Shown: positions 3,708 to 14,132 of the stretch, piece after piece
Position numbering within the stretch: the first letter of the stretch is position 1
How the letters are laid out: every line of letters begins with the position of its first letter
Assembly: GCA_029866125.1 (NCBI GenBank)
Contig: JARWZZ010000015.1
Coordinates: 1 to 64,000 of the forward strand
Length of the DNA stretch: 64,000 bases
Reading direction: 5' to 3'
Source of the DNA: Limnobacter sp.
GTDB lineage: Bacteria; Pseudomonadota; Gammaproteobacteria; Burkholderiales; Burkholderiaceae_B
Translations under genes and position numbers: made by a program
Notes under the pieces: model-generated
What the model was told of the DNA's origin: nothing
What the model saw: the letters and a program-made list of their open reading frames with translations, nothing else
Database searches by the model: none

Positions 3708-4343
3708 CTACCAGCGGATGAATCGTGGGGCCAGCAAAGCGCCAAGCGCCGTGACCAAACTGATTCCCAAGGTATACCACAAAGCCACAAAGGGGGCAGC
3801 CACCTCACTGCAAGCAAAGGCGTAACCAGTAGCACCCAAGGCACCTGCAAAAAAACCGCAAGCGGCACCTGTTACACGAATGCGGGTGGGTGCCATTTGG
3901 GAGGCAGCCCAAAAAGCAGCCATGAGGCCCGGAACGGACAAAGCCGTAATCGTCCATGGGCAGCTTAGGTAGGAATGGCCCCACAAAGCAGTGGCCTTTT
4001 GGTCTTCAGGGGTGAGTAGGTAGCCAATTGCACCATAAATCATCATTCCAAGCGGCAGCACAAACACCGCCCACTGCTGAGCACGGGTGGACAAACCCGG
4101 CCTACCCAACCTAAACAGCAGCAAACCCCCTGCAAAGGCCAAAATGGCAACATAAGCCAGTTTTAATTGCATACCCGCCATAGAAAGCAGGCCCACCGGT
4201 ACCCAGCCAAACACCAGCCAAGTCATTAATGCTGAAAAACCCAAAGCCAAGGCGGCAGCTGGCAGCACAGAACGGGTAAACAAACCCTTCGGCACTGGCC
4301 CAGCTTGGGTGGCAAGCATGTGTATGAGGTCATCGGTTTTCAT
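3708..4343 (-). CDS. nrsF: NrsF-like (DUF1109) membrane anti-sigma factor
   Basis: Multi-TM protein immediately downstream of ECF sigma gene; conserved-looking Cys in SYLSCPW and FACSEVAAPF. Confidence 0.85.
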   Translation of the reverse strand: MKTDDLIHMLATQAGPVPKGLFTRSVLPAAALALGFSALMTWLVFGWVPVGLLSMAGMQLKLAYVAILAFAGGLLLFRLGRPGLSTRAQQWAVFVLPLGMMIYGAIGYLLTPEDQKATALWGHSYLSCPWTITALSVPGLMAAFWAASQMAPTRIRVTGAACGFFAGALGATGYAFACSEVAAPFVALWYTLGISLVTALGALLAPRFIRW

Positions 4344-4364: not shown

Positions 4365-4922
4365 TTATTGCTTAGCAACCAACACCGCCAATTGCTTCAA
4401 ACCCCGGTGTACTTGCACCTTCAAGGCTGCAACTGAGATGCCTGTTTTATCCGAGGCTTCTTGCAAAGAAAGGCCCTCCACCTTGGTCAACCAAATCGCC
4501 GATTTTTGGGCCACAGGCAAACCATCCAGAAGGGTTTCTAAATCTTGACCTGCCCCTTCATCCCGCGCTTGGGCCAAAGGCATTTGGCTTTCATCCAATT
4601 CATCAATCGAATCATGCAGGGCGTCCTGCCTTCCATGTTTACGCCACATGTCCACCAATTTGTAACGGGCAATGGCAAACACCCACGCAGAAAGCGGGCT
4701 ACCCGGGTCGTATGTGTCGCGCTTCAAATGCAGGGCAAGCAAGGTTTCTTGCACCAAATCTTCAACTTCTGACGGTTTGCCCTGCAAACGGCGGGCATAA
4801 AACTGGCGCAATCGCTTTGCAATCAAAGCCAACACCTGAGCGTAAGCACGCTCGTCGCCCAAATTGGCTTTCAGCCACAGCGGGTGAATTGCGGACTCAA
4901 AATCATCTATCACTTGATTCAT
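4365..4922 (-). CDS. ECF RNA polymerase sigma factor (SigF-like)
   Basis: Region 2 (VEDLVQETLLALHLKRDTYDPGSPLSAWVFAIARYKLVDMWRKHGR) and region 4 (GLSLQEASDKTGISVAALKVQVHRGLKQL). Confidence 0.92.
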   Translation of the reverse strand: MNQVIDDFESAIHPLWLKANLGDERAYAQVLALIAKRLRQFYARRLQGKPSEVEDLVQETLLALHLKRDTYDPGSPLSAWVFAIARYKLVDMWRKHGRQDALHDSIDELDESQMPLAQARDEGAGQDLETLLDGLPVAQKSAIWLTKVEGLSLQEASDKTGISVAALKVQVHRGLKQLAVLVAKQ

Positions 4923-5860: not shown

Positions 5861-6580
5861 ATGGCCGTCAAAATTCACCTGCAAGCTTTGCAACAAGCAA
5901 TAGACTCGCTTTGCTTCCGGTTGCTTAGCTTCGGGTTGGGCCTTACCTTGGGCCTTGCTGCCTTTACGACGCCAATTGAAGCACGGGCCGCAAATGGTTT
6001 CGAATCTTTTGAAGATGCAGAACTACTCGACAAGCTGGCTTTCAAGGTGGCACGAGAGTACGCGAATCAATACAAGTTTCGGTTTCAATTCAAATTTGTT
6101 GAAAAAGAATCTGCCCGATTATCCCCATTGTTAGTCCAGTATCAATCCAGCAGCAAAAACTGCATTTTTTGGATTAGCCCCAAAGAAGAATCTTGGCACA
6201 GCTTCGAAAACTACCTCCGCTTTTTTGATGGTTTGCCCAAGCAGGTGGTTTACGAGGCATTTTTCGCGCACGAGGCCGGACACTGCGTGCAGTTCCGTGA
6301 GGAAATATATTTTGGTTCAGAAGAAAACGGCACCCGCCAAGAATTGTTTTCTGACGTTTTTGCACTCTCGCATGTCGAGAGACATTTCCCCACATGGCGT
6401 GTTGCTTTTCAAAATTCATTGTTGAACATGCGTAGAGTCGAACGAGGAATGGGTTCAAGCTACGACTTTGCTCAAGACCTACAACGTTTTACTCGGAGCC
6501 GGGATTTTGTCTCTGTACTTCGCCTCAAGGAACCTGGAGAACGAGCATTTATGATGGCGAAAGTTATTGATTTACTGTAA
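5861..6580 (+). CDS. Predicted exported metalloprotease-like protein (HEAGH motif)
   Basis: Hydrophobic N-terminal segment; FFAHEAGHCVQF and downstream QELFSDVFAL. Confidence 0.6.
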   Translation: MAVKIHLQALQQAIDSLCFRLLSFGLGLTLGLAAFTTPIEARAANGFESFEDAELLDKLAFKVAREYANQYKFRFQFKFVEKESARLSPLLVQYQSSSKNCIFWISPKEESWHSFENYLRFFDGLPKQVVYEAFFAHEAGHCVQFREEIYFGSEENGTRQELFSDVFALSHVERHFPTWRVAFQNSLLNMRRVERGMGSSYDFAQDLQRFTRSRDFVSVLRLKEPGERAFMMAKVIDLL

Positions 6581-6602: not shown

Positions 6603-6632
6603 GTTTTGAAGACCAAATTCAGGAGAATTAGA

Positions 6633-6785
6633 ATGACAGTGTGCCCAATCGCAATTGCAGTCACCTGCAAAAAATGCCCCGCTTACAGCTTTTGCCCCGC
6701 CAAAAGCATACTGGGGGACGAAAAGCCTGGTAACGATAAAACACAAGACAACAAGTCCAGCGCTGGCACCAACAAAAAATCCTGA
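6633..6785 (+). CDS. Small Cys-rich protein (50 aa), absent from ORF track
   Basis: MTVCPIAIAVTCKKCPAYSFCPAKSILGDEKPGNDKTQDNKSSAGTNKKS; AGGAG 7 nt upstream of ATG; terminator follows. Confidence 0.7.
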   Translation: MTVCPIAIAVTCKKCPAYSFCPAKSILGDEKPGNDKTQDNKSSAGTNKKS

Positions 6786-6807
6786 TCTGCCGCGCAGCCA
6801 AAACAAA

Positions 6808-6835
6808 AAGCCAACCCAAAGGTTGGCTTTTTTTA
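6808..6835. terminator. Rho-independent terminator
   Basis: AAGCCAACC-CAAA-GGTTGGCTT plus T run. Confidence 0.85.
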
Positions 6836-6844
6836 TTTCAACAT

Positions 6845-7447
6845 TTAAAACGTGTTGTCAATTACCACGTCGCTTAAACTCAACTGTCCGCCCTTGGGTT
6901 GAGCAGGCTTCACACCTCGACCAATGGCAACCAATGGGCCCATCACATGGTCGGCAGGTAATTTAACCAGTTCAGCCACCTTTTCGATGTCAAAACCAAT
7001 CATTGGGCAACTGTCATAACCCATGGCTTTGGCAGCCAGCATCAAAGTTTGCATGGCCATGCCAATGGAGCGTTGGGCTTCATCCCTTTGCAACCACTCG
7101 CGGCCCTCATGGAAGGGGCCCATCCAACCGACCAACAAATCAGACACTTCCTTGGGTGCATCTTTCCAATAACGCTGAGGCTCTTTGGCCCAAGCTTTGG
7201 AGTCCGCAGTCATCAACACCAACAATGATGAATCAGTAATTTGCGACTGGTTGTTACCCAAGGCGCGCACCTGTTGACGCAATTGCGGGTCACGAATAAC
7301 CACAAAACGCCAGTGCTGAATGTTAAAACTGGTGGGCGCCTGAATGGCTGCAGAAAACAGTTTTTGCTCTTCCTCTTTGCTCAAAAGGTGCTCGGGGTCA
7401 AACGCCTTAACCGCACGGCGCTGATAAATTGCATCAAATGTATCCAT
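6845..7447 (-). CDS. Nitroreductase family protein
   Basis: IYQRRAVKAFDPEH..APTSFNIQHWRFVVIRD..GYDSCPMIGFD. Confidence 0.9.
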   Translation of the reverse strand: MDTFDAIYQRRAVKAFDPEHLLSKEEEQKLFSAAIQAPTSFNIQHWRFVVIRDPQLRQQVRALGNNQSQITDSSLLVLMTADSKAWAKEPQRYWKDAPKEVSDLLVGWMGPFHEGREWLQRDEAQRSIGMAMQTLMLAAKAMGYDSCPMIGFDIEKVAELVKLPADHVMGPLVAIGRGVKPAQPKGGQLSLSDVVIDNTF

Positions 7448-13154: not shown

Positions 13155-14132
13155 ATGGCCTTCACTCGCACACGCGCGGCCTCACGCCCTGCTTCATTGA
13201 CCGACACTGAGCTCAAACAGCGCAAGGTTAAGTTCCATTGGGAGGATACCCCACTGGACTGGATTCCAAACCAGCCCTATGCAAGCCATTTCATCAACGA
13301 AATCAATATGATTCTGCCAGCCGGGGAATTTTGGTTTTGCCGCCTTTACAACAAAGCGCTACCGTTGATTACCGATGAAAAGCTGAAAGAGGATGTGAAA
13401 GGCTTTATCAAGCAAGAAGCCATGCACGCACGCGGGCATTCCGCCGCCATGGACGAATACCTTGAACAGCGCGGCATCAGCACCGCCCGCAACCAAGCCA
13501 TCATGAAATACCTGTTTGAAACCGTATTGGCCGACGAACCCTTTGGTAAAAAAATGCCCAAGTGGATGGAGCGCCGCTGGCTGCTGCTGCGCTTGGGTTT
13601 GATTGCCGCAATCGAGCACCAAACCTGCGTGCTGGGCACCTATGCCTTGACCAATAAAAATTGGGACGATGCACAAGCAGACCCGGTGTTTTTGGACTTG
13701 ATCCGCTGGCATGGCGCTGAAGAAATTGAGCACCGAAGCGTCGCTTTTGACTTGTACCAGCATTTGGGTGGGGACTACATTTCCCGCTACTACCTCACTG
13801 CTGTGGCTTTGCCTATGATTATCGGTCTGTGGGTGGACGGCGCGGCCCATGTGATGAAACAAGATGTGCGTTTTGCCGACAAAAAGCCAAGCGTGTTCCG
13901 CCCATGGATGTGGTTAGAGTGGCAACGCACTGCCAAAAAGGGCATGTTACCTAGCCCTTTCAAATTGGTATGGGACAGCATGCCCTTCTTTAGCCCTTGG
14001 TATGACCCAGCAAAAGAAGGCTCAACCGAGATGGCGCAGGAATACCTGAAAAAATCACCGGCTGCATCCACAGCAGAATCCATCGAGACTGCAATCCGCC
14101 GCACCCATGCCAAAGAGTCTGTGGCTGTTTGA
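13155..14132 (+). CDS. Predicted metal-dependent hydrolase (PF10118-like)
   Basis: FIKQEAMHARGHSAAMDEYL and HGAEEIEHRSVAFDLYQHL. Confidence 0.8.
   Translation: MAFTRTRAASRPASLTDTELKQRKVKFHWEDTPLDWIPNQPYASHFINEINMILPAGEFWFCRLYNKALPLITDEKLKEDVKGFIKQEAMHARGHSAAMDEYLEQRGISTARNQAIMKYLFETVLADEPFGKKMPKWMERRWLLLRLGLIAAIEHQTCVLGTYALTNKNWDDAQADPVFLDLIRWHGAEEIEHRSVAFDLYQHLGGDYISRYYLTAVALPMIIGLWVDGAAHVMKQDVRFADKKPSVFRPWMWLEWQRTAKKGMLPSPFKLVWDSMPFFSPWYDPAKEGSTEMAQEYLKKSPAASTAESIETAIRRTHAKESVAV

Follow-up and report, generated by a model that had tools for sequence, protein, structure and literature searches.

The open reading frame (ORF) of 50 codons at positions 6633–6785 on the plus strand of the window (the whole 64,000 nt stretch of DNA analysed here) is a real gene, and belongs to a widespread, conserved and unnamed family of four-cysteine microproteins. 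Hundreds of species retain the protein, and its putative metal-ligand residues are nearly invariant, yet the family lies outside Pfam, NCBIfam and the PDB: sequence searches of these three resources gave no significant match to any Fe-S or other family, a Foldseek comparison with the PDB returned no match, and a literature search on small cysteine proteins found no paper on the family. This gap in annotation is probably due to length cut-offs. The breadth of the family, its copies on phages, its fusion to HEAT repeats and the lack of a fixed genomic partner all go beyond the original prediction of a small cysteine-rich ORF.

Structure of the gene

The coding sequence starts with an ATG (6633–6635) and ends with a TGA stopcodon (6783–6785), and is preceded by a Shine-Dalgarno-like AGGAG sequence (6621–6625, plus strand) with a 7 nt spacer; the ATG, the AGGAG with its distance and the 50 codons had been described before. 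The encoded peptide (MTVCPIAIAVTCKKCPAYSFCPAKSILGDEKPGNDKTQDNKSSAGTNKKS) has cysteines at positions 4, 12, 15 and 21, in agreement with the C-x7-C-x2-C-x5-C spacing previously noted for its first 21 residues. Family alignments and column counts define a conserved core of residues 1–29 (MTVCPIAIAVTCKKCPAYSFCPAKSILGD, 6633–6719), in which Cys4, Cys12, Cys15 and Cys21 as well as K24, G28 and D29 are kept, followed by a variable Lys-rich tail (residues 30–50, 6720–6782), which is predicted to be disordered, with low pLDDT. The protein did not fit the class of bacterial lipoproteins: its n-region consists of MT without Lys or Arg, and Cys12 is preceded by a Thr (as in 10/99 members), where a lipobox has G, A or S before its Cys. 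A σ70-like match at 6606–6634 was rejected as promoter, as it overlaps the startcodon and has a chance-level score.

Downstream of the gene, a perfect 12 bp stem with a U tail (6805–6832) forms an intrinsic terminator, and the surrounding 45 nt (6796–6840) have a folding energy of -16.4 kcal/mol (z = -4.9 versus shuffled sequences). The strong terminator of the original prediction was thus found, but it does not serve this gene alone: a nitroreductase-family gene (6845–7447, minus strand) is convergent to the microprotein gene, and the hairpin is bidirectional and located between the two, hence common to both.

Such an ORF anatomy is by itself weak evidence for a gene. Within 846 kb of sequence (782 kb of genome stretches plus the window, approximately a quarter of the genome), four ATG-initiated ORFs of 35–65 aa, including the microprotein, combine an SD-like site with ≥4 Cys among their first 25 residues. 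It is conservation rather than anatomy which raises this ORF above chance.

Distribution and conservation of the family

Using tblastn, the microprotein was detected in 14/14 sister-genus genomes (≥90% complete, the named members being Limnobacter) with 58–64% identity. At the level of the order Burkholderiales the distribution is patchy, with 23/200 genomes positive when the window's own is counted, and a sample of 399 genomes of the phylum contained a match in five besides the window's own (weakest E = 0.007). Two degenerate peptide patterns, run against 84,980 genomes of the GTDB species set, gave at least 392 confirmed loci, and the best 80 of these were inspected. The loci are from Betaproteobacteria, Gammaproteobacteria (Marinobacterium, Nevskia and Lysobacterales), Alphaproteobacteria (Zavarzinia), Acidobacteriota and metagenome-assembled genomes (MAGs) of Planctomycetaceae. 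In a further sample of 199 Acidobacteriota genomes, five carried the stand-alone form and three a fusion, while 3/147 genomes of a planctomycete order carry the microprotein; records from single MAGs may reflect binning errors, the planctomycete ones above all.

Homologues with conserved cysteines, which the original prediction had called for, were thus found in abundance: all four Cys are kept in 80/80 of the best tblastn loci among the at least 392. For statistics we used 99 distinct proteins, and since the pattern used to collect these demands the four Cys, the figure over the 80 tblastn loci is the unbiased measure of cysteine conservation. In two of these 80 loci (L093 and L131) the four Cys are kept although the collecting pattern fails at other residues. 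Coding constraint, whose lack would likewise have counted against the original prediction, was also apparent, with a core pS of 0.73 and pN of 0.19 (pN/pS 0.27) over the 99 proteins in this frame only, as the other two forward frames lack such a signal.

The consensus of the core is MT[LV]CP[IV]A-x4-C-x-KCP-x4-CP-x-K-x3-GD, and the family can be defined as M-x2-C-P-x-A-x4-C-x2-C-x5-C-x4-8-G-[DN] at the N-terminus of an ORF of 39–83 aa, the length range of the 99 proteins; the microprotein of the window has this pattern. The startcodon is aligned throughout the 99 proteins, and 90/99 of their genes have an SD-like GGAG, GAGG or AGGA at the matching place. The tails are variable and predicted to be disordered, with a mean net charge of +3 (positive in 87/99). 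Two open frames of 702 and 1074 aa were rejected as fusions, as their upstream part is frame noise in GC-rich DNA and both copies have their own startcodon.

A putative metal site and its likeness to Fe-S proteins

The earlier suggestion that the four cysteines could bind a metal or Fe-S centre, or act in redox sensing, is supported by the family data. From the sequence patterns we infer metal binding, a preference for Fe-S over Zn, and a role: the cysteine pattern can be read with fair confidence as a metal site, and Fe-S is moderately favoured over Zn as its occupant. We consider it slightly better than an even chance that the protein is a stand-alone Cys4 metal-binding module, most likely with Fe-S, which serves as redox, O2 or NO partner or as electron carrier. 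The microprotein would be cytosolic and would act on its own, with the 29-residue core forming one Cys4 metal-binding module in which Cys4 and the C12-x2-C15-x5-C21 triad may ligate a single Fe-S cluster, probably of the [4Fe-4S] type. A short helix (approximately residues 5–14) would join the first ligand to the triad, K24-x3-G28-D29 would form a cap behind the last ligand, and the disordered, mostly basic tail may function as tether or contact surface. The protein would likely serve as a small electron carrier or as a partner that responds to redox state, O2 or NO, with a target that is probably not encoded nearby. An AF2 model of weak confidence (mean pLDDT 63, pTM 0.29) has a helix at residues 5–14, then an ordered turn and then disorder, with low pLDDT past the core.

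The spacing of the last three cysteines recurs in several known systems. In a quarter of the genome, the C-x2-C-x5-C triad is present in three ORFs, encoding MutY (Fe-S), PriA (Zn) and a protein without Pfam match, and the weak, sub-threshold profile matches of family members include the Fe-S proteins RnfB, Fer4_16 and MutY. Nucleases of the Cas4/AddB type, like WhiB1 and MutY/EndoIII, use C-x2-C-x5-C and one additional Cys as ligands. WhiB1, which binds [4Fe-4S] via Cys9, 37, 40 and 46 (PMC5741622), is likewise a small protein with four Cys, the last three spaced C-x2-C-x5-C, but its first spacer is x27 rather than x7. WhiB-like (Wbl) proteins share a Gly-containing turn past the ligands followed by a basic end, but differ in their GVWGG turn and in having been described only in actinomycetes; the members of the microprotein family are 40–60 aa long. 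Membership of the Wbl family was rejected: the triad is present, but neither the consensus nor the microprotein contains GVWGG, and no Wbl chain was matched in the PDB.

The N-terminal domain of RseC has a CX2CX5C motif that forms an O2-sensitive Fe-S cluster, and the E. coli protein of this family (RseC/MucC, PF04246) has CX5CX2CX5C with the last three Cys as Fe-S ligands (PMC11729352); however, RseC resides in the membrane, with two TM helices, and its first Cys is not conserved. As PF04246 matched 0/95 members and the 50 aa microprotein lacks two TM segments, it was not assigned to RseC/MucC. The EndoIII/MutY loop (PF10576) resembles the family in its C-x6-C-x2-C-x5-C pattern, the third Cys of MutY being followed by a Pro, but is part of a glycosylase, has a first spacer of x6 instead of x7, and this spacer is hydrophilic, compared with P-[IV]-A-[IL]-[AV]-x-G in the family. 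Homology with this loop was not supported, as hhalign gave a probability of 13% over 14 columns and there was no PF10576 match or glycosylase domain.

Two phage proteins (L180 and L181) were rejected as family members, as they are DUF2800 PD-(D/E)XK nucleases; their C-x2-CPAF-x2-CPAK closely resembles the C-x2-C-P-A-F-x2-C-P-x-K of the family consensus. This likeness spans <20 residues: the microprotein has no nuclease domain, and in the iron-staple PD-(D/E)XK nucleases (Cas4, AddB and DUF2800) the fourth Cys is located approximately 200 residues away, within the nuclease domain. The type of motif found in DUF2800-like nucleases binds Fe-S in Cas4/AddB, and a related Cys4 nuclease was crystallised with Zn (PMC3466216).

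The latter structure fits with an alternative that we regard as serious but unlikely, a Zn(Cys)4 structural microprotein in which one Zn folds the 29-residue core into a docking module for protein or nucleic acid without a redox role. Four Cys with a C-x2-C knuckle suit Zn as well, the C-x2-C-x5-C of PriA from the same genome overlaps its Zn-ribbon region, and the basic, disordered tail would be in line with docking, as would the fusion to HEAT repeats, themselves docking scaffolds. Zn sites usually pair two knuckles, whereas the family has a single C-x2-C knuckle with spacers of x7 and x5, and the closest local look-alikes are Fe-S sites.

Quite improbable, in our view, is a thiol-redox or thiol-chaperone peptide lacking a structural metal site, which would cycle between dithiol and disulfide or bind Cu or heme via its CP dipeptides. 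The small size, the lack of a recognisable fold, and three conserved Cys-Pro pairs reminiscent of heme-regulatory CP motifs agree with such a peptide, but the strict C-x2-C-x5-C and the conserved K-x3-G-D exceed what these motifs need, and the protein carries no signal for export to an oxidising compartment. If the favoured Fe-S cluster is bound, the microprotein would rank with the smallest natural Fe-S proteins, and be easy to make and study.

Phage copies and HEAT-repeat fusions

Ten IMG/VR loci encode the microprotein (L170–L172, L173, L174, L175, L176 and L177–L179), with identical copies in L170–L172, while no match was found in 50,697 phage records or 72,556 plasmid records. Copies are located on contigs of tailed phages. 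Genes for a large terminase are present in L173, L174 and L176, and L173 additionally has one for a portal protein; a ParB/DNA-methylase protein is encoded in L170 and L173, and a primase/helicase in L178. In L174 the core begins a 157 aa protein with a long charged tail. The gene for the ParB/DNA-methylase protein adjoins the family copy on several viral contigs, and in L170 a Pfam match to a ParE-like toxin and a DUF3489 gene immediately precede the copy, an arrangement resembling that of moron cassettes. That the family is phage-derived or mobile, moron-like cargo with a role in phage-host interaction instead of host redox is very unlikely: such contigs, the patchy spread and a chromosomal context that shifts even inside the genus speak for it, but the phage and plasmid records gave no match, the chromosomal neighbours are ordinary genes, and the gene is retained in every near-complete genome of the genus, a pattern that resembles a core host function.

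In three Acidobacteriota genomes (L227, L228 and L229), a diverged core (LCPALAMYLSC-x2-CPFVAACPYKTRLGD) occupies the N-terminus of a protein of approximately 380 aa with HEAT repeats, and matches the family profile with E ~1e-7 per genome. The four Cys are kept, with a first spacer of x8 where the microprotein has x7, and the core is followed by HEAT_2/HEAT_PBS repeats. This fusion shows that the core of the microprotein is a transferable domain, and together with the phage copies provides two direct handles on the partners of the microprotein. A more tentative extension, possible rather than probable, is that this is a natural Fe-S family of the smallest class, its 29-residue module being a redox-responsive plug-in that modulates partner proteins, used alone in Pseudomonadota, Acidobacteriota and Planctomycetaceae, fused to HEAT repeats in some Acidobacteriota, and also carried by tailed phages.

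Genomic context and candidate links

No recurrent neighbour emerged when ORFs were clustered at 80 loci, or when the directly adjacent genes at approximately 65 loci were scanned against Pfam; the commonest neighbour families occurred twice each. The upstream gene varies even inside the genus: in the window it encodes an HExxH protein, whereas other loci have a Sel1-repeat protein, an IlvD-type dehydratase or an AraC-type regulator in this place. Unrelated neighbours at >60 loci argue for a self-contained gene, and combined with the metal-site pattern suggest a self-contained module that may act on a distant target.

No shared site for FNR, LexA, RpoH, RpoE, RpoN or CRP was found beyond shuffled controls in 88 upstream regions, nor were there k-mers or dyads enriched beyond shuffles in these regions. 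In one Limnobacter group, a block of CTGCAATACT...GGGA-N4-TCCC...ACGAGGA is located directly 5′ of the gene; it is kept in L075 despite a different upstream sequence, and with small changes in L078. Several species of this group also have a GC hairpin and T run just 3′ of the gene, and the kept 5′ block and 3′ hairpin point to an independent transcription unit. The CTGCAATACT block and the GGGA-N4-TCCC inverted repeat, which are present in L072, L075, L078 and L083 and absent from the species of the window, are a possible promoter and operator.

Three functional links were examined in the 200 genomes of the order and found no support. Cytochrome cd1, as a marker of denitrification, was present in 5/23 carriers (6.2 expected), and the PF10118 hydrolase in 3/23 (1.7 expected). 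RseC was depleted rather than enriched (1/23 carriers versus 7.1 expected, nominal P = 0.001), which is probably a lineage effect, and was not read as functional because it tracks whole bacterial families. Any PF10118 gene was present in 15/200 genomes of the order, and the genome of the window has six genes for such metal-dependent hydrolases, one at 13155–14132 of the window and five at other places.

Just upstream of the microprotein gene, the window encodes a protein (5861–6580, plus strand) with a signal-like N-terminus and an HEAGH metallopeptidase motif (HExxH), without Pfam match. Finally, as judged by eye, an apparent ECF sigma factor gene is followed by a gene for a multi-pass membrane protein, which may be an anti-sigma factor, at 3708–4343 and 4365–4922 on the minus strand.
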